Shown: positions 46 through 24,474 of the stretch, piece by piece
Layout of the letters: the number at the start of each line of letters is the position of its first letter
Position numbering within the stretch: the stretch's first letter is position 1
Source of the DNA: a virus
Strand: one strand, 5' to 3'
IMG/VR virus record: IMGVR_UViG_3300006175_000024
Location: 1-28,400 of that record
DNA: 28,400 nucleotides
Position numbers and translations under genes: made by a program
The notes under the pieces: model-generated
The model's input: the letters and a program-made list of their open reading frames with translations, nothing else
The model's database searches: none
What the model was told of the DNA's origin: nothing

Positions 46-119
<74 letters not shown>

Positions 120-9748: not shown

Positions 9749-10023
9749 GCGTTGTCGCTGCCGTAACGCGTGACCTCGGCGAGCTGCGCCGTCGGGCGCC
9801 AGACCTTGCCGACTCGGCGCTTGCCGCATCGGCTCTAGCGCTGGCCGCGGAGATCGACAGCCAGGGGAATTCGGCGACGTCGAAGTCGATGTGTGCCCGT
9901 GAGTTGCGTGACACGTTGGACCGGTTGCGGGATCTCGCGCCGAAGCAGGAGGAGAAGGACGACCTCGATGATCTCGCCGCCCGTCGCGCCCGCCGGATCG
10001 CTAAGGGGGGTTCAGGAGCCTAG
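9745..10023 (+). CDS. terS: terminase small subunit
   Basis: 92 aa; ATG 9745 overlaps the previous stop. The all-helical sequence with DLADSALAASALALAAEID, SATSKSMCARELRDTLDRLR and KDDLDDLAARRARRIA is the pattern of the short actinophage small terminase family. It recognises phage DNA and loads the large subunit. Its 3' end overlaps the large-subunit gene by 56 bp in another frame, consistent with coupled translation. Confidence 0.85.
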   Translation: MSVVAAVTRDLGELRRRAPDLADSALAASALALAAEIDSQGNSATSKSMCARELRDTLDRLRDLAPKQEEKDDLDDLAARRARRIAKGGSGA

Positions 10024-11470
10024 GGTCTGGTCGCTTCCGGAGTCGGTTTCTTCGGCTGGGGAGGAGGCGGTTGAGCTGGCTCGGATGGCCGGGCTGGTGT
10101 TGGATCCGTGGCAGGAGTTCGTGCTTGCGTCGTCGTTGGGGGAGCGGGATGACGGGAAGTGGGCGGCGTTCGAGGTCGGCGTTGTCGTTTCCCGGCAGAA
10201 CGGCAAGGGGTCGATCCTTGAGGCGCGCGAGCTGGCCGGCCTGTTTCTGCTCGGCGAGCGGCTGATTATCCATTCGGCGCATCAGTTCGACACGTCGATC
10301 GAGGCGTTTCGCAGGCTGCTGTTTCTGATCGAGGACACCCCGGACTTCGCTCGTCGCGTCAAGCGCGTGTCGCGGTCGCATGGCGAGGAGGGGATCGAGC
10401 TCAAGGGCGGGCAGCGCATCCGGTTTCGCACCCGGACGAAGGGCGGCGGTCGCGGATTCACGTCGGACTGCCTGATCCTCGATGAGGCGATGATCCTGCC
10501 GGAGAGCGCGCACAGCGCGCTGCTGCCGACGTTGTCGGCCCGGCCGAACCCGCAGGTGTGGTACACCGGCTCCGCGGTCGACCAGGAAGTCCACGAGCAC
10601 GGGATCGTGTTGGCCCGTATCCGCGAGCGCGGCCTGAAAGGTGACGACCCGGCGCTCGCGTACATGGAGTGGTCGGTCGACGAGGACGACTACAACGACG
10701 ACCCTGCCCAGGTCGCGGTCGACCCGGACGCGTGGGCGAGAGCGAATCCCGGCCTCGGGATCCGCATCTCGACCGAGCATGTCGCCCGTGAGCAACGGTC
10801 GATGGACGCGAAGGCATTCGCGGTCGAGCGGCTCGGCGTCGGCGACTGGCCGGCTACGGACGGGTCCGGGCAGCGCGTGATCGGCAGGGCCGCATGGGCA
10901 GCCTGCGAAGACGCCGAGTCGACGGTGCGTGACCCGGTGTGCTTCGCGGTGGACGTCATGCCGGACCGTTCGGCGGCGTCGATCGCTGTTGCTGGCCGCC
11001 GCGATGACGGGCTCGCGCATGTCGAGATCGTCGAGCATCGACGCGGCACCGACTGGGCTGCTGGCCGGCTCGCGGAGCTGGTCGCCGATCACAAGTCGAT
11101 CGGGGCGTTGTGCGACGCGACCGGCCCCGTCGCCTCGCTGCTTCCCGAGCTGGAAAAGCTCGGCGTCCAGGTTGAGGCGGTCAACACGAGCGAGCACGCC
11201 CAAGCCTGCGGGATGCTGTTCGATGCCGTCCAGCAGCAAACCGTCCGGCACCTCGGCAGCCTCGAGCTTGGCGCTGCGGTCGCCGGCGCGGTCAAACGGC
11301 CGCTTGGCGACTCGTGGGCGTGGTCGCGGAAGTCCTCGACGGTAGACATCTCCCCGCTCGTCGCTGTGACGTTGGCGTTGTGGGGTGCCTTGACGAAAAC
11401 GAAACCGAAGGCCCGTGCGATCGACCTGAACGCCGTGCTTCGCGACATGAACCAAACGGAGGAAACATGA
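9968..11470 (+). CDS. terL: terminase large subunit
   Basis: 500 aa from ATG 9968; the frame is open earlier but inside terS. The N-terminal ATPase has Walker A RQNGKGS (76-82) after FEVGVVV, Walker B LILDEAM with D172/E173, and a coupling-type segment VWYTGSAV. The C-terminal nuclease has acidic candidates D329 (CFAVDVMPD) and D383 (LCDATGP). It powers DNA translocation into the prohead through the portal and cuts the concatemer. The length is normal for the HK97-like actinophage family. Its stop overlaps the next ATG. Confidence 0.95.
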   Translation: MISPPVAPAGSLRGVQEPRVWSLPESVSSAGEEAVELARMAGLVLDPWQEFVLASSLGERDDGKWAAFEVGVVVSRQNGKGSILEARELAGLFLLGERLIIHSAHQFDTSIEAFRRLLFLIEDTPDFARRVKRVSRSHGEEGIELKGGQRIRFRTRTKGGGRGFTSDCLILDEAMILPESAHSALLPTLSARPNPQVWYTGSAVDQEVHEHGIVLARIRERGLKGDDPALAYMEWSVDEDDYNDDPAQVAVDPDAWARANPGLGIRISTEHVAREQRSMDAKAFAVERLGVGDWPATDGSGQRVIGRAAWAACEDAESTVRDPVCFAVDVMPDRSAASIAVAGRRDDGLAHVEIVEHRRGTDWAAGRLAELVADHKSIGALCDATGPVASLLPELEKLGVQVEAVNTSEHAQACGMLFDAVQQQTVRHLGSLELGAAVAGAVKRPLGDSWAWSRKSSTVDISPLVAVTLALWGALTKTKPKARAIDLNAVLRDMNQTEET

Positions 11471-12001: not shown

Positions 12002-13288
12002 ATGTCGCTTATCCGCCGTGCTGCGGCGCTCTCAGAGCGTCGTGGCGCGGACGGACGGCTTCCCTGGGGGGATTCGACCCCGCCGACGAACGGGTCCCTT
12101 GGCGGGTCGGTAGCCGGCGTTCCTGTCACGGAGAAATCGGCGTTGCAGGTCGCCGCGGTCTACGGATCGCTCGGGGTGATCTCCGACTCGATGGCGACGC
12201 TGCCGTTCGAGCTGTTCAACTCGCTCGACCCGGCCACGCGTAGGAAACTGCCGCCGTCACGGCTGCTTGAACAGCCATATGTCGAGATCAGCCGGATGGA
12301 CTGGATCGTGCAGTACACGATGTCGGTCGGGCTGCGCGGCAACTTCTATGGCCACATCATCGAACGTGACCAGGACCTTTACCCGTCGCAGATCAAGCCG
12401 ATCCACCCTGACCAGGCCAGGGTGCGGCGCGTCGCCTATGGGCCGAACAAGGGCGCACCCGAGTATTGGTTCGAGGGCAAGGCCGTTCCGATCGATGACG
12501 TGTTCCACGTCCGGTATCTCTCGGTGCCGGGCAGCCTCATCGGCCTGAACCCGATCGAGTACCTGCGCCACATCCTCGGGCTCGCTAGGGCACAGGATCT
12601 TTATGGGGCCTCGTACTTCGCGAACAGCGCGAACCCCAGCGGTGTGATCCAGGTCCCCGGCGATCTCGACCCTGAGGAAACCAGGGCGCTCGCGCAGGGA
12701 TGGATGCAGGCGCATCAGGGGATCGGGAACGCGAACCTGCCAGCCGTTCTCACCGGCGACGCGAAGTTCAACCCGATCACGATCACCCCCGAGGACTCGC
12801 AGTTCCTCGAATCGCGGCAGTTCTCCCAGTCGCAGATCAGCGGCATGATCTTCCGCGTCCCGCCGCACATGATCGGGATCGTCGACCGGTCCACCTCCTG
12901 GGGGACCGGGATCGAGCAGCAAGAACGCGGCTATGTCACGAACACGCTCTCCGGCTACTACGGCCGGCTCGAAGCAGCCCTGACCGCGGTCCATCCGGCG
13001 AACCGGTTCGTGCGAGCGAACCTCAGCGAACGGCTCCGCGGCGACACCCTCCAGCGCTACCAGGCGTACGGGCTCGGGATCGCATCCGGGTTCCTGTGCC
13101 AGGACGACGCGCGCGCTGCCGAGCACATGCCGCCGCTGCCCGACGAGCTCGGCCAGACCTACCTGATGCCGATCAACGCCGAGCCGCTCAAGCAGGCGGT
13201 CATGGAATCCATCGCAGCGTCCAAGCAACCACCTCCGCCTGTCGGGGGCAACGAAGACCAGCAGGGCGGAGGTAAGGCAGATGGCTGA
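12002..13288 (+). CDS. HK97-type portal protein
   Basis: 428 aa, ATG 12002 three bases after the upstream stop. The N-terminal signature KSALQVAAVYGSLGVISDSM followed by LPFELF, the central PIHPDQARVRR...YEPN-like clip region, and GTGIEQQERGYVTNTL followed by the stem-type helix are typical of the Phage_portal (HK97 gp3) family. Twelve copies form the DNA channel at one capsid vertex, which binds TerL during packaging and later the connector. The C-terminal 40 residues are Gln/Gly-rich and likely flexible. It overlaps the protease gene by 8 bp. Confidence 0.95.
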   Translation: MSLIRRAAALSERRGADGRLPWGDSTPPTNGSLGGSVAGVPVTEKSALQVAAVYGSLGVISDSMATLPFELFNSLDPATRRKLPPSRLLEQPYVEISRMDWIVQYTMSVGLRGNFYGHIIERDQDLYPSQIKPIHPDQARVRRVAYGPNKGAPEYWFEGKAVPIDDVFHVRYLSVPGSLIGLNPIEYLRHILGLARAQDLYGASYFANSANPSGVIQVPGDLDPEETRALAQGWMQAHQGIGNANLPAVLTGDAKFNPITITPEDSQFLESRQFSQSQISGMIFRVPPHMIGIVDRSTSWGTGIEQQERGYVTNTLSGYYGRLEAALTAVHPANRFVRANLSERLRGDTLQRYQAYGLGIASGFLCQDDARAAEHMPPLPDELGQTYLMPINAEPLKQAVMESIAASKQPPPPVGGNEDQQGGGKADG

Positions 13289-14534
13289 AACCACGACCGA
13301 AAAGCAGCTCAGGCACGACATCCGAGCGGCCGTCCATGCCGGCCCCGAAGCCGACGGCGACCGGCGCGATCTGATCGTCCACGCGGCCGAGCATGACGTG
13401 TCCGGGCTGATCCCCGACAACTGGAACGCCGACGGCAGCCTCCGGGAGCCGCGCGAGCAGCGCGAGACCGCCAACGACGTCTTCGCAGCGCTCGAAGGCG
13501 CTGTAGAGGACGCGTTCGACGACCTCGACGACTACTGGTACATCTGGGTGCGGGACTGGTACGGATCCGGCGCCGACGACGACCCGTACATGGTCGTCTT
13601 CTGCGTCGAAGACAATCTGTACGCCGCTCCGTTCTCGTTCGACGAGGACAACAAGGTCGTGCTCGGCGAGCCGACGCGCGTGCGGCCGGTCACGTTCTAT
13701 GTCGAGCGTGCCGCGAAGCCGACCCGTCGGCGGACGTCAGGCGGCCTGGAGCTGCGAAAGCAGCGCGCACAAATGCTGGAGGGCGTCCCCGAACGCCGTA
13801 GGTTCGACTTCGGCGGCCTGGAGCTTCGCCAGACAAGCGACGGCGCCTACCGGTTCTCCGGCTACGCCTCCGTGACCGAACACGAGTACGAGGTCGGCGA
13901 CTTCACCGAGATCATCTCGCGCACAGCGTTCAAGCGCACGCTCGCCGAAGACCCCCACGTCGTGCTGCTCATCAACCATGGCGACGGCGGATCAGGGCTG
14001 CCCCTGGCCAGCACGAAGTCGGGGACGCTCACGCTCTCCGAGGACGCCCGCGGGCTGCGCGTGATCGCCGACCTCAACCCAGACGACCCCGATGCCGGGC
14101 TGCTGATCCCGAAGATGGAACGCGGCGACGTGGACGAGATGTCGTTCGCGTTCCGGGCCACCGGACAGCGGTGGAACGAGGATTACACGCTGCGAACGAT
14201 CGAATCGGTGTCGCTGCATCGCGGGGACGTGTCGGTCGTGACGATGGGCGCGAACCCCGCGACGACCTCCTCGTTGCAGGCCCGTGAGCTTGCCGGGGCG
14301 CTGGTCGAGATGAGGTCCGGCAACGCGCCCTCGGCCCACATCCTCGACGTGCTCCGCCAAGCGGCGATCGACCAAGGTCAGCTCGACGATGTCGACGAGC
14401 TGCTCGCCACTCTTCGCAGCGAACCCGACGATGAGCCTGAGGTGAGGGAGCAGCCCGCATCCGGCTTCTGGCTGCCGGCGGACTCCACGATCGAGGCGCG
14501 GCAGCGCCTTATGGCGCTTGGCGGCTCGCGATGA
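13281..14534 (+). CDS. HK97 prohead protease with long N-terminal extension
   Basis: 417 aa. The protease domain lies at about 165-340: FDFGGLELRQ start, GYASV, catalytic His233 in LLINHGDGG and Ser288 in DEMSFAFRA, as in the U35 (HK97 gp4-like) family. It cleaves scaffold/delta domains and then itself inside the prohead. Residues 1-145 are an extra domain (WYIWVRDWYGSGADDDPYMV, acidic) followed by a basic linker (KPTRRRT). I have seen similar acidic domains near actinophage proteases but know no function. ATG 13281 overlaps the portal end. Confidence 0.9.
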   Translation: MAETTTEKQLRHDIRAAVHAGPEADGDRRDLIVHAAEHDVSGLIPDNWNADGSLREPREQRETANDVFAALEGAVEDAFDDLDDYWYIWVRDWYGSGADDDPYMVVFCVEDNLYAAPFSFDEDNKVVLGEPTRVRPVTFYVERAAKPTRRRTSGGLELRKQRAQMLEGVPERRRFDFGGLELRQTSDGAYRFSGYASVTEHEYEVGDFTEIISRTAFKRTLAEDPHVVLLINHGDGGSGLPLASTKSGTLTLSEDARGLRVIADLNPDDPDAGLLIPKMERGDVDEMSFAFRATGQRWNEDYTLRTIESVSLHRGDVSVVTMGANPATTSSLQARELAGALVEMRSGNAPSAHILDVLRQAAIDQGQLDDVDELLATLRSEPDDEPEVREQPASGFWLPADSTIEARQRLMALGGSR

Positions 14535-15730
14535 CCGCCGTCGAAACGCCCGAGGCGGCCAGCCCCGCCGTGACTGTTGTTCGCGAGCCGCTGACCTATG
14601 AACGTGAAGCGCCGCGTAGCTACTTCCGCGACCTCGCGCTCTCGCGGGCAGCGAACGTCAGCGCCGAGAAACGCCTCAAGCAGCATGCGAAAGAGATGCG
14701 CGTCGAACTGCCAGCGTTGGAGAAACGAAACCGCGCCCGCGCGGCCGAGTCCGGCCTGGAGTTCCGCGTCAACCCGTCGACGACGGACGGGCAGGGCGGC
14801 TACTTCTCGCCGCCGCTGTGGATGATCGACCGGTTCGCTACGGCCGTCCGTCCCGGACGGGTGCTCTCGCACCTGATCCCGACATTCCCGCTGCCGCCCG
14901 GCGTCAGCTCGGTGAACCTGCCTCGCCTGACCACGGGCACCCAGGCCCTTCCGAGTTCGCCTTTGGGCAACATTCAAGATCGCGACATCGTGGATGCGGT
15001 CACGTCAAGCCCGGTCGTGACGATCAGCGGGCGGGGCGATGTCGCTCTCCAGGTTCTCGAACAGTCCCCGACGGGAGCGCATCTTGACTGGGCGATCTTT
15101 CGGGACCTGACGGAGAGCTATGACCACCAGCTCGAAGCGCAGATCCTTGCCGGGACGGGCGCCGGCGCGCAGTTCACTGGCCTGCTGAACCTCCCGACCG
15201 GCGCCGGCGGCGTCAACGTCGTCACCTACACGGACGCGTCACCGACCGGCTCGGAGATGTTCGCCTACCTCGGCCAGCTCGCCGCGCAGGTCGGCAACAA
15301 CCGACTCAGGCCGCCCGAGGCATGGGTGATGCGCACCTCACGCTGGGGATGGCTCGGCAGCGCCGAGGACACCGCCGGCCAGCCGCTCGCGGTGCCAGGC
15401 CACGTCCCGAACCCGCCGCTTCCACACCTCCTCGACGATGACATTCCGACACCGGTCGGGATGGAACTCGGCTGGCCGATCTACTGCTCAGACGCGATCC
15501 CCGCGAACCTGGGCACCGGCGCCAACCAGGACACCATCCTCGCCGTGCGTCCGAGCGACATGTTCGTACTCGAAAGCACCCCACAGGCAGCGGTGATGCT
15601 CGACCCGCTCTCCGGAACGCTTCAAGCACGCCTCAGCCTGCACGCCTATGCCGCAGCGATCGTCGGCCGCTACCCGACCGGCATCGCAACCCTCCAAGGG
15701 ACCGGCATGGCCGTACAGACCGGCTTCTAA
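14531..15730 (+). CDS. HK97-fold major capsid protein 1, delta domain missing
   Basis: 399 aa, ATG overlaps the protease stop. The HK97 fold is recognised by NPSTTDGQGGYFSPPLWMID (residues 81-100), QVLEQSP (174-180) and the long E-loop/A-domain C-terminal part ending in SLHAYAAAIVGRYPTGIA. The same motifs recur in the next gene. Here the shared YFRDLA box starts at residue 31, against 123 in the second protein, so the coiled-coil delta (scaffold) domain is absent. It could be a second shell subunit, a specialised vertex protein, or a degenerating duplicate. A strong hairpin follows the stop. Confidence 0.9.
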   Translation: MTAVETPEAASPAVTVVREPLTYEREAPRSYFRDLALSRAANVSAEKRLKQHAKEMRVELPALEKRNRARAAESGLEFRVNPSTTDGQGGYFSPPLWMIDRFATAVRPGRVLSHLIPTFPLPPGVSSVNLPRLTTGTQALPSSPLGNIQDRDIVDAVTSSPVVTISGRGDVALQVLEQSPTGAHLDWAIFRDLTESYDHQLEAQILAGTGAGAQFTGLLNLPTGAGGVNVVTYTDASPTGSEMFAYLGQLAAQVGNNRLRPPEAWVMRTSRWGWLGSAEDTAGQPLAVPGHVPNPPLPHLLDDDIPTPVGMELGWPIYCSDAIPANLGTGANQDTILAVRPSDMFVLESTPQAAVMLDPLSGTLQARLSLHAYAAAIVGRYPTGIATLQGTGMAVQTGF

Positions 15731-15771
15731 CCGGAGCCGTCTCGCCCGCGTTGGATCCCGCCTGACCCGCG

Positions 15772-15797
15772 CCACACGCCCTCCAGGGCGCGTGTGG
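15772..15797 (+). terminator. hairpin between the two capsid genes
   Basis: CCACACGCCC (15772-15781) pairs with GGGCG(CG)TGTGG (15786-15797) around TCCA, with two unpaired bases on the 3' side: ten pairs, mostly GC. No T run follows. It may cause partial termination, protect the downstream mRNA after processing, or slow ribosomes. The rest of 15731-15857 holds no gene; it ends with the ribosome site CGAAAGGAA (15843-15851). Confidence 0.45.
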
Positions 15798-15857
15798 TCC
15801 GGCATGGTCGGACAGCCGCCCGGGAGCCAGTAGCTCAACTCCCGAAAGGAACCACCC

Positions 15858-17474
15858 ATGCCCGCAGTCACGGAGCCCACGCTCCTCGACAAGCTGCGCG
15901 ACCGTCGCGCAGCTCTCGTCGAAGAGTGGGAGCAGCAGATCACCAAGCGCGAAGGCGAGCGCACCGAGTTCGAGGAGCGCCTCGCGGCCGAGAAAGAAGA
16001 CGACCGGCCGTCAGACGCCGACCGTGACGCGTTCCGGTCCGCTGAGGAGGCGTTCAAGCTCGCATCCGACGAGAAGCACGAGGCGATCAAGGACCTCGAT
16101 CAGCGGATCAAGGACCAGGAGGAGATCGCCGAGCGTCGCGCGACCGCCGCACAGGCAAGCACGACCGTCGAGGTCGTCGACGAGCCGAAAATCTACCGGC
16201 GAGACAACGCCGCCAAGATCAGCTACTTCCGCGACCTCGCCGCCAGCGACCCGAAGATCGTTCAGCACATGAACGGCATCGACCCGAACGAGGCGATCGA
16301 ACGGTTGCGCAACCACTCCACCGACGTCGGCGAGTGGGTCACCAAGCGCGCCGCAGACCGCAAGGCCCGCGCGGACGAGCAGATCGACCGCGCCGAGCGC
16401 GAGTTCTGGCTTTCGCACGGCCGCAGCGCCCGCGGGTTCGTCGCCAGCCCGTTCGAGCAGCGCATCAACCCGAACCGCACCGACGGCCAGGGCGGGTTCT
16501 TCGTCCCGCCGCTGTGGCTCGTCGACGAGTACATCCCGGCGCTTCGCGCCGGCCGGATCGCCGCTGGGCTCTGCCGCCAAATGGATCTCCCCGAGGGGAC
16601 CGACTCGATCAACATCCCGAAGCTCTCCACGACGACGAAGGTCGCGCCGCAGGCCGCGGACCTCGCGCCGGTCGCTTCGCAGGACATCACGGACACATCG
16701 ATCAACGCGCCCGTGAAGACCCTCGCCGGCCAGGAGGACACCGCGATCCAGCTCCTCGAGCAGTCCCCCGGCCGGATCATCGACCAGGTCATCACCGAAG
16801 ACCTGTTCGCCGACTACAACCGCCTCGTCGACCAGCAGGTCCTCTACGGCAACGGCGCGAACGGCTCGATCACCGGCATCTACCCGTCCACGAACTGGAC
16901 CGGGACGAACACCGTCACCTGGACCTCCTCGACGCCGCTCGGCCCGGGCTACAACATGGTCCTGGGCGCGATGGCGTCCAAGACCGCCTACAACCGCTAC
17001 AACCTCGAGAACTTCCACTTCCTCGGGCACCCGCGTCGGTGGTTCTGGTTCGCGACCGCGCTCGACGGTGCCGGAGGCGCCGTCGGCCGTCCGGTCGTCA
17101 ACATCGAGTCGGTCGCGTACAACGTCTCCGCGCTCGAGGTCGGCAACGTGCCGTTCGAGGGGCTCGCCGGCCGCGTGCCGTTCGGCCCCAGCTACTACAT
17201 CGACGGCAACGTCCCGACGACCGACAACGGCTCCGGCGCCCTCACGGGCACCTACGACCTGACGATCGGCGCGAAGTGGGACGACCTCTGGCTGTTCGAG
17301 GGCGACCTCCGCACCCGCGTCCTCCCGGAGGTGCTGTCCGGCACCCTCGAAGTGCGGTTCCAGCTCTACAACTACGTCGCGTTCCTGGTCCGCTACGGCC
17401 AGTCGATCACGCTCGCGCAGGGCTCCGGCTTCGCCGCCCCCGCCTCCGCGATCGACTCGTCCGTGACCTTCTAA
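15858..17474 (+). CDS. HK97-fold major capsid protein 2, with N-terminal delta/scaffold domain
   Basis: 538 aa, ATG 15858 with a strong site CGAAAGGAA seven bases before. Residues 1-100 are a highly charged coiled coil (delta domain), and a second helical segment spans about 140-190. The HK97 core starts near 200 with NPNRTDGQGGFFVPPLWLVD (204-223), then QLLEQSP (298-304) and the C-terminal YNYVAFLVRYGQSI. Its delta domain should act as internal scaffold and be removed by the upstream protease. It is probably the abundant shell protein, judged by its own gap and ribosome site. Paralogue of the preceding gene. Confidence 0.95.
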   Translation: MPAVTEPTLLDKLRDRRAALVEEWEQQITKREGERTEFEERLAAEKEDDRPSDADRDAFRSAEEAFKLASDEKHEAIKDLDQRIKDQEEIAERRATAAQASTTVEVVDEPKIYRRDNAAKISYFRDLAASDPKIVQHMNGIDPNEAIERLRNHSTDVGEWVTKRAADRKARADEQIDRAEREFWLSHGRSARGFVASPFEQRINPNRTDGQGGFFVPPLWLVDEYIPALRAGRIAAGLCRQMDLPEGTDSINIPKLSTTTKVAPQAADLAPVASQDITDTSINAPVKTLAGQEDTAIQLLEQSPGRIIDQVITEDLFADYNRLVDQQVLYGNGANGSITGIYPSTNWTGTNTVTWTSSTPLGPGYNMVLGAMASKTAYNRYNLENFHFLGHPRRWFWFATALDGAGGAVGRPVVNIESVAYNVSALEVGNVPFEGLAGRVPFGPSYYIDGNVPTTDNGSGALTGTYDLTIGAKWDDLWLFEGDLRTRVLPEVLSGTLEVRFQLYNYVAFLVRYGQSITLAQGSGFAAPASAIDSSVTF

Positions 17475-17501: not shown

Positions 17502-18116
17502 ATGTCTGACCTCGTTCGTGGCCGGTTCCCGGTCACAAGCCCGTTCGCCAAGCTCACCGGCATGGCAGCGAACGCCACCCAGGGCAACATCGCGGTCCGG
17601 TCGAACATGGAGTGGTTCGGGCTCGCGAACCCGACCGACGGCGCTCTCGCGGCGACCGGCGTCGGCTGCGCGGTCCCGATCCCCGTCGAGATCGGCGACG
17701 TGATCTCCAAGATCACGATCCTCGCCGGCGCCACCGCAGAGGCGACCGGCACCCACGCGATCGCGGCCCTGTACTCCGGGCTCGCGACCCCGGCGCTGCT
17801 CGCGCAGTCGGCGGACAACACCGGCGCGGCCGCGGTCGCCGCGTCGGCTCCGTTCTCGTTCACGCTGGCGACGCCGCAGACGATCACCGCAACGAACGCG
17901 CCTAATGGGTTCGTGTACGCGTCGATCGCGATCACCGCGACGACGGTCCCGACCGCGGCGGTCGTGTCGGTCCCGACCGCGATCGGCTACCAGTGGTTCG
18001 CCAACGGGCCGCTGTTCCTGTCCGCGACCCACGGGTCCGCGCTCGCCGGCACCGCCGCGGCGACGATCGCGTCGCCCGCGGCGAAAGCCGTCGCGCCGCT
18101 GGTGTTCCTCTCCTAA
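17502..18116 (+). CDS. beta-rich putative capsid decoration protein (204 aa)
   Basis: ATG 17502 follows CGAAAGGAA (17487-17495), the same strong site as the capsid gene. The sequence is Ala/Thr-rich and almost all beta, with SKITILAGATAEATGTHAIA, ALYSG, LLAQSADNTGAAA and YASIAITATTVPTAAVV. I recall similar proteins after the capsid gene in other actinophages. A surface (decoration or head-fibre) protein is the likeliest role; there is no direct proof. It has no Cys pair or signal peptide. Confidence 0.7.
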   Translation: MSDLVRGRFPVTSPFAKLTGMAANATQGNIAVRSNMEWFGLANPTDGALAATGVGCAVPIPVEIGDVISKITILAGATAEATGTHAIAALYSGLATPALLAQSADNTGAAAVAASAPFSFTLATPQTITATNAPNGFVYASIAITATTVPTAAVVSVPTAIGYQWFANGPLFLSATHGSALAGTAAATIASPAAKAVAPLVFLS

Positions 18117-23004: not shown

Positions 23005-24474
23005 ATGAGCCCACTCGGCGTCACCGTCACAACGAATGAGCTGTTGCAGGCCGGCGCCGGTATCCCCGTGGGCACCGGCACCGCGTTCTTCGCCGGAGCA
23101 TGCGACCAAGGACCACCACCGAGCCTCGGCACCGCCTATGTGCGGTGCTTCTCGATCAACGACTACGTCACCGCATTCGGGCAACGCTCAACGACGAGCG
23201 CTGCGCTGTACGACGCGGTCGACACGTTCTTTCACGAGGGCGGATCGGTCTGCTACGTCACCCGCGTAACGGACAACACGGCCACCTCGGCGTCGCTGAC
23301 GCTTCAGGACTCGGGGCCGCACCCGACCGTGACGGTCACCGCGCTCACCCCCGGTACCGCCGGCAACAACATCTACATCGCAGCGTCGATCGCGTCGAGC
23401 AAGGTCACGATCACCGTCCAAGACGCCGCCGGGGACGTCCTCGAAACGCACGGCCCCTACTCGACGACGGCCGCGTTGTTCGCCGACACGACGAGCGCCT
23501 ACGTCAGCTTCGCCCAGGCAACCGGATCGGGGAACACGACGAACCTGCCGGTAGCCCTCTCTGCGACCGCGTTGAGCGGAGGCGCTGACGCGAACGACCT
23601 CACCGACGCCTCCCACGTCGCCGCGCTCGCGAACTTCCCCGCGTCGCTCGGGCCGGGCACCGTCGCGCTGCCCGGCAAGACGTCCACGATCGCATGGACC
23701 GGGCTGCTCGCCCACGCGCAGGCGTACAACCGGTTCGCTGCGCTGGACATGGCGGACTCGCCGACCGCGGCGACCCTCATCACCGCGGCCGGGACGACCG
23801 GCACAGCAGCGAACGCCTCGTGGGGCATGTTCGCGACCTCCACCTGCATCATCCCCGGCATCACGCCGGGCACGACCCGGACCGTCGCCGCCTCCGCTGT
23901 CGTCGCTGCGCTGCGTGCGCAAGTTGCCGCTACCGGTAACAATGTTCAGGCTCCTGCTGGACGCAAATGGCCGCTCCAGTACGTCACCGGGTTCACAAAC
24001 ACCTATAACGACGCGGACATGGCGACGCTCAGCGCCGCTGGGATCAACACGTTCGCGATCCGCTACAACGTGCCGTGCCTGTTCGGGTGGGTAACCCCCG
24101 TGAGCAGGGCGACTGACCAAATCTTTTGGGGGGCTGGCCCAGCGTGCGAGCGCATGGCTCTCGTCGCCGACGGCGCGCGAATCATGGAAGGGTTCCTCTT
24201 TGCCACGCTCGACGGGCAGAACCACACGATCACTGCCGCGCAGGGCGCCCTCCAGGCCCTCATCGCCGAGCATTGGCGGGCTGGGGCGCTCTACGGCGAG
24301 ACCGCGGCCGATGCTGGTTCGGCGCTCGTCGCACCGCCGGTGAACACACCCGCGACCGAGCAGGCCGGACAGCTCAACGCGAATATGCAAGTCCGCTTCG
24401 GTGAGGACGCCATGACGGCGAACCTCTCGATCACGGCCGTTCCGATCACCCAGACGGTCACGCCGTCGGCCTGA
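23005..24474 (+). CDS. contractile tail sheath protein
   Basis: 489 aa, ATG 23005 after AGAGGAGC. N-terminal VTVTTNE...GTGTAFFAGACDQGPP, the INDYVTAFGQR and FFHEGGSVCYVTRV boxes, the ATSTCIIPGI insertion region, and the C-terminal half with FAIRYNVPCLFGWVTPV, RIMEGFLFAT and LNANMQVRFGEDAM all match phage sheath proteins. Subunits surround the tube and contract on infection, so the virion is a myovirus. It ends three bases from the oppositely oriented homing endonuclease gene. Confidence 0.92.
   Translation: MSPLGVTVTTNELLQAGAGIPVGTGTAFFAGACDQGPPPSLGTAYVRCFSINDYVTAFGQRSTTSAALYDAVDTFFHEGGSVCYVTRVTDNTATSASLTLQDSGPHPTVTVTALTPGTAGNNIYIAASIASSKVTITVQDAAGDVLETHGPYSTTAALFADTTSAYVSFAQATGSGNTTNLPVALSATALSGGADANDLTDASHVAALANFPASLGPGTVALPGKTSTIAWTGLLAHAQAYNRFAALDMADSPTAATLITAAGTTGTAANASWGMFATSTCIIPGITPGTTRTVAASAVVAALRAQVAATGNNVQAPAGRKWPLQYVTGFTNTYNDADMATLSAAGINTFAIRYNVPCLFGWVTPVSRATDQIFWGAGPACERMALVADGARIMEGFLFATLDGQNHTITAAQGALQALIAEHWRAGALYGETAADAGSALVAPPVNTPATEQAGQLNANMQVRFGEDAMTANLSITAVPITQTVTPSA

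Follow-up and report, generated by a model that had tools for sequence, protein, structure and literature searches.

Why should a phage carry two HK97-type major capsid protein (MCP) genes side by side, when in most HK97-type phages hexamers and pentamers are made from one protein? The question is raised by virus record IMGVR_UViG_3300006175_000024, from a soil phage, the 28,400 bases of which form the window analysed here and to which coordinates refer. The first of the two genes encodes a protein with a short propeptide (MCP-A) and the second a full-length protein (MCP-B). By taking into account profile matches, structure models, phylogeny and expression signals, it is proposed that MCP-A is probably a minor capsid subunit with a dedicated role, which assembles together with MCP-B and most likely forms the pentamers at the non-portal vertices. 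Co-assembly, giving a mixed shell, a special vertex or a different capsid size, had already been put forward in an earlier note on this DNA, and co-assembly with MCP-A in a special position would be the simplest reading of two intact genes that are kept together in related phages.

Both genes are genuine HK97-type capsid genes, with intact frames where the earlier note had placed them. Their products match PF05065 Phage_capsid (MCP-A, E = 5.3e-10, 39.6 bits; MCP-B, 1.1e-8, 35.2 bits; curated cut-off, 24.2) and the phrog_2263 major head protein family (9.3e-25 and 1.1e-37, respectively); a T4 gp23/gp24 profile matched neither protein, and Pfam gave PF05065 alone up to E 0.1. Over the capsid core MCP-A and MCP-B have 33-35% identity, far above chance, each is the sole match of the other within the record, and they have all core landmarks in common, with the YFRDLA box beginning at Y31 in MCP-A and at Y123 in MCP-B, as first noticed. 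The alignments behind the structure models were shallow (11 and 9 rows). The AlphaFold model of MCP-A (predicted local distance difference test score, pLDDT, 59) matched HK97 (1ohg) in Foldseek with an E value of 2.8e-9 and yielded VIA-align Z values of 15-17, up to 17.4, over 210-265 residues against gene transfer agent (GTA), HK97 and encapsulin chains, so that the doubt initially left open, namely that the first protein might not adopt the HK97 fold, is not borne out by the model. That of MCP-B is trustworthy in the N-terminal coiled coil only (ten-residue means mostly 73-92), the capsid core being unusable. The TerL, portal, protease and tail genes that surround the pair distinguish it from an encapsulin system, while the consecutive portal, S78 protease and capsid genes, along with a propeptide with a cut site ahead of the N-arm, are those of an HK97-type self-scaffolding module.

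Scans of viral contigs, along with one scan of genomes, yielded more than 150 loci (designated by L numbers), which allowed the propeptides to be compared across the family. MCP-A has approximately 79 residues ahead of the conserved cut-site Arg (R/VNPSTTDGQGG, the slash marking the cut after Arg79) and MCP-B approximately 202 (R/INPNRTDGQGG, Arg202). Both columns align with the processing site of the capsid protein of mycobacteriophage LittleE, which was defined by sequencing the mature N-terminus (PMC3706429), and the Arg is conserved in 53 of 54 MCP-A, in all 36 scorable MCP-B and in 35 of 36 single-copy proteins. Because of this conservation and alignment, MCP-A is expected to be cleaved with loss of its propeptide of approximately 79 residues. 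Median propeptide lengths across the family are 87 aa for MCP-A, 207 aa for MCP-B and 162 aa for single-copy relatives and the deep-clade partners discussed below. The earlier description of MCP-A as devoid of the delta (scaffold) domain needs to be corrected, in that a short propeptide with a conserved processing site is present and the N-terminal coiled coil of MCP-B alone is missing. The accompanying claim that such a copy could not self-scaffold may hold: the analogy with the Ccm protein of SaPIbov5 (PMC8569155) favours it, but elements that contain MCP-A only (see below) also allow for the opposite. A missed upstream start of MCP-A restoring the coiled coil was considered and rejected, the frame being open for at most 108 residues ahead of the motif, which is too short.

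A tree of the core columns, with the propeptide excluded, places MCP-A and MCP-B in one clade each (Shimodaira-Hasegawa-like approximate likelihood ratio test, SH-aLRT, 100 and 99, respectively), with the remaining full-length proteins outside both. The 54 distinct MCP-A proteins in the tree are all intact, with invariant core residues, and for 43 of them a full-length partner is encoded on the same contig. Those without a partner are mostly at contig ends or in A-only elements; an exception is L010, in which MCP-A lies ahead of a protease and a tape-measure gene and no MCP-B is present in the 8.8-kb contig. A deep MCP-A subclade of eight members (L059, L062, L065, L074, L083, L088, L094 and L147) has its own full-length partner clade, also of eight, and in L147 the order is portal, MCP-A, protease, full-length MCP rather than portal, protease, MCP-A, MCP-B as in the main lineage. 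MCP-A and MCP-B distances over the same contigs are correlated (Mantel r 0.76; 0 of 2000 permutations as high). One MCP-A and one MCP-B gene are found in each of the 12 B-lineage records checked (34.8 to 106 kb), contrary to the possibility, raised in the earlier note, that related genomes always keep only one of the two, and a single gene is found in each of four single-copy records. The ratio of non-synonymous to synonymous substitution rates (dN/dS) of MCP-A is approximately 0.13-0.4 where computable, consistent with purifying selection. One clade for each protein, co-divergence, the constant presence of one gene of each type and the low dN/dS thus indicate that the pair is an old, selected feature in phages of Actinomycetota. 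That MCP-A is instead a decaying duplicate or an unused gene might be suggested by the lack of the coiled coil and by its divergence, approximately 1.25 times faster than that of MCP-B (87% of 595 comparisons), but the number of distinct intact proteins, the invariant core residues, the low dN/dS and the conserved cut site and linkage largely refute this explanation, now extremely improbable, in line with the initial judgement that degeneration of one copy was unlikely. Among 50,697 records of cultured phages no A-type relative was recognised, each of the 57 matching records having one matching place, and two matches were obtained among 396 sampled genomes from a single phylum.

As a separate observation, the gene for the full-length capsid protein is interrupted at the GQGGY motif, where the capsid gene of LittleE has its intron, in the MCP-B genes of L025, L060, L070, L123 and L143 and in the single-copy genes of L141 and L144; L060 has a second break at LEQSP. 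Of all these breaks, the first one in L060 alone matched the Rfam group I intron, and no split MCP-A gene was seen.

Which of the two proteins is the major one may be estimated from codon usage. In the window the effective number of codons (ENC) is 28.7 for MCP-B and 30.4 for the gene that follows it, to be compared with 38.5 for MCP-A, 38.5 for the portal, 36.9 for the protease and 37.2 for TerL, and across the family the MCP-B value is below that of MCP-A in 25 of 31 pairs (p 1.5e-4). The distance of MCP-B from MCP-A, the latter resembling the low-copy portal, protease and terminase, points to MCP-B as the major protein, and we infer that MCP-B would be abundant and MCP-A scarce. The starts of the two genes also differ: that of MCP-A is on or close to the protease stop in most loci, and in many relatives the MCP-B leader carries conserved CGGGAG/CTCCCG arms (variants, GGGATC/GATCCC and GGGACG/CGTCCC) by the ribosome-binding site, with none ahead of MCP-A. 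The arms are paired in 92% of cells versus 14-58% when slid, covariation of the hairpin is weak (one pair with double changes; median single-sequence z 0.84), and Rfam detected no known RNA at the capsid genes of the window; the leader is a possible translational control element. A frameshift fusion of protease and capsid protein, considered in view of the fact that phrog_2263 also matches the protease, would be less plausible, the ATGA overlap fitting ordinary translational coupling and no slippery site being evident by eye.

The vertex position is suggested by these expression signals taken together with two precedents that have been solved experimentally. In T4, gp24 loses 10 aa and forms 11 pentamers, and gp23 loses 65 aa and forms hexamers (PMC9958956); SaPIbov5 Ccm loses 87 aa and forms pentamers, and the phi12 capsid protein (CP) loses 128 aa and forms hexamers (PMC8569155). 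MCP-A is likewise a paralog of the major capsid protein with a shorter propeptide, as a gp24-like function implies. A mosaic shell, with MCP-A mixed at a variable ratio into hexamers or the whole lattice, would be compatible with the core landmarks common to both proteins and with the Family 2B encapsulin, in which shells of variable composition and irregular tiling are assembled from two HK97-fold proteins (PMC12407261), but it appears unlikely by taking into account that codon bias indicates very unequal amounts and that in both viral precedents the paralog with the shortened propeptide is specific to pentons. It is even harder to favour a confinement of MCP-A to a single particular site, for instance the capsomers that surround the portal vertex, or an action during assembly only. 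The location of MCP-A between portal/protease and MCP-B with its start overlapping the protease stop, the portal- and protease-like codon usage, and its location between portal and protease in L147 would agree with such a role, to which we nevertheless assign a low probability: gene position is a weak argument on its own, and to our knowledge there is no precedent of an HK97-fold paralog restricted to the portal vertex.

Additional information is provided by elements that carry MCP-A without MCP-B. In L160, the whole contig of L061, a segment of approximately 13 kb between two att repeats, one of them at a tRNA gene, contains genes for the protease, MCP-A, TerL, TerS, a primase and a helix-turn-helix protein, and no portal, tail or MCP-B gene was found in it. 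L161 has TerL, MCP-A, protease and integrase, and L162/L163 have primase, HNH, TerL, MCP-A and protease, in all cases with no MCP-B and no portal found; L173 (17,991-base contig) has helicase, RusA, MCP-A, WhiB and a serine integrase and also no MCP-B, and no terminase, portal or protease was found there. Both ends were identified for L160 only, the other elements being fragments or having uncertain bounds, so that distant portal genes could be missed. In the MCP-A tree the A-only rows nest among phage rows, and the starred branches require at least two changes. These elements look like phage satellites that captured MCP-A, and they would parallel Ccm if MCP-A is a penton protein, the opposite argument holding if it builds a shell alone. 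It has also been considered that MCP-A determines capsid size or shape, or builds an alternative smaller particle in a phage with two kinds of head. Ccm, a capsid homolog with a short propeptide, converts phi12 heads from prolate to isometric (PMC8569155), and the elements with MCP-A and no MCP-B lie on contigs of approximately 9-18 kb. On the other hand, the pair is kept in records of approximately 35 to 106 kb with no sign of a switch, two head sizes bring little to a phage with one genome length, and the proposal overlaps with the vertex position, given that Ccm acts from pentons; it too is regarded as improbable. A more far-reaching combination is advanced tentatively, and with some doubt: MCP-A may be a dedicated penton protein of ancient origin in an uncultured Actinomycetota phage lineage, captured at least twice by satellites, which did not take the major capsid protein with it, to seize the vertices of the helper and reset head size. 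In that case, the use of a stolen penton for capsid piracy would recur as a strategy beyond staphylococci.

In the mechanism proposed for the dedicated minor subunit, MCP-B would be the major, hexon-forming and self-scaffolding capsid protein. At the procapsid stage its long coiled-coil propeptides would organise the shell from the inside, and MCP-A would join through ordinary HK97 capsomer contacts, bringing only a short propeptide. The S78 protease would then strip both propeptides, after Arg79 and Arg202, and the shell would mature. We infer processing of MCP-A, co-assembly and vertex position, and several considerations weigh against them. Confidence in the MCP-A model is moderate (pLDDT 59). 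From the existence of the A-only elements, MCP-A may be able to build shells without MCP-B. Furthermore, no difference in strength between the ribosome-binding sites of the two genes is found across the family (p 0.51), and the lower ENC is accompanied by a higher GC content at third codon positions (GC3).

Table 1. Features of the capsid locus; positions refer to the window, except in the last row, where they refer to L160.
Feature	Position	Strand	Remarks
tRNA-Arg (TCT) gene	46-119		left end of window
TerL	9893-11470		
Portal protein	12002..13288	+	PF04860, 2.3e-69
Prohead protease S78	13281..14534	+	PF04586, 2e-30; would cleave both capsid proteins
MCP-A (399 aa), HK97-fold capsid paralog with a short propeptide	14531..15730	+	start overlaps protease stop (ATGA)
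MCP-A predicted propeptide, residues 1-79	14531..14767	+	up to conserved cut-site Arg79; column aligned with LittleE mature N-terminus (PMC3706429)
A-B intergenic leader	15731..15857	+	CGGGAG arm 15821-15826; CTCCCG arm 15839-15844; ribosome-binding site AAAGGA 15845-15850
MCP-B (538 aa), full-length HK97-type major capsid protein	15858..17474	+	
MCP-B predicted propeptide, residues 1-202	15858..16463	+	up to conserved cut-site Arg202 (PMC3706429)
Coiled-coil helices of MCP-B, residues 9-42 and 53-102	15882..16163	+	MCP-B model; none in MCP-A
204-aa protein, candidate head decoration protein	17502..18116	+	strong codon bias; adjoins MCP-B
L160 (whole contig of L061, 15,290 bases), tRNA-Glu gene	13159-13231		its 3' end is repeated (26 nt, 92%) at 80-105, by integrase

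The candidate decoration protein (table 1), downstream of which the tail genes are found, is kept next to MCP-B in most pair-bearing loci and is doubled in L182, L214, L186 and L197; searches with Pfam and PHROG profiles gave no family match for it. Residues 1-143 of the protease (13281-13709) form an N-terminal domain that L014/L015 have at the C-terminal end of the gene instead, so that it is a movable module. A weak tail-sheath match at 23005-24474 (phrog_279, 8.4e-10) suggests a contractile tail, whereas the cluster J phages to which the capsid proteins are related are siphoviral.

That paralogous HK97 subunits may include a dedicated minor member is already known from T4 and Ccm, both special cases. 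No published description of a pair such as the present one was found in the open literature, subscription journals being outside the search, and to that extent the lineage, the combination with a self-scaffolding MCP-B, the single-copy relatives and the A-only elements appear to be undescribed. In a whole lineage that keeps a second subunit and has single-copy relatives and A-only elements, it can be tested how duplication gives rise to a penton subunit, what scaffolding owes to the propeptide, and whether head size is altered by satellites by means of stolen pentons.

The closest cultured relatives of both proteins are the MCPs of cluster J and Bipper-type mycobacteriophages (Omega, LittleE, Porcelain and Cracklewink; 31-34% identity over 92-96%), which have the same cut site and a capsid maturation protease gene upstream, but encode only one capsid protein, the propeptide of which has approximately 145-155 aa, no MCP-A gene being found in them; the BAKA capsid has a triangulation number of T = 13 (PMC3706429). 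With the Family 2B encapsulin of Streptomyces lydicus the pair would share the co-assembly of two HK97-fold shell proteins (PMC12407261), but the former is a cellular nanocompartment with no portal, protease or terminase and with mixed shells of variable composition. T4 also has two paralogous HK97-fold proteins, the minor one with the shorter propeptide and both cut by the prohead protease (PMC9958956); it differs in having a separate internal scaffold, whereas here MCP-B bears its own long propeptide, in gene order (MCP-A is ahead of MCP-B) and in the identity between the two proteins, approximately 33% for MCP-A and MCP-B versus approximately 20% in T4. The SaPIbov5 Ccm/phi12 system is similar in being HK97-type, with no separate scaffold and with a capsid homolog that has a shorter delta domain, Ccm being unable to form shells alone (PMC8569155), and the A-only integrative elements resemble SaPIbov5. 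A Ccm-like satellite gene is encoded without the major capsid protein of the helper, whereas in the window MCP-A adjoins MCP-B, both genes being in one phage and seemingly inherited together vertically, so that MCP-A looks here like a normal phage component rather than the gene of a parasite.

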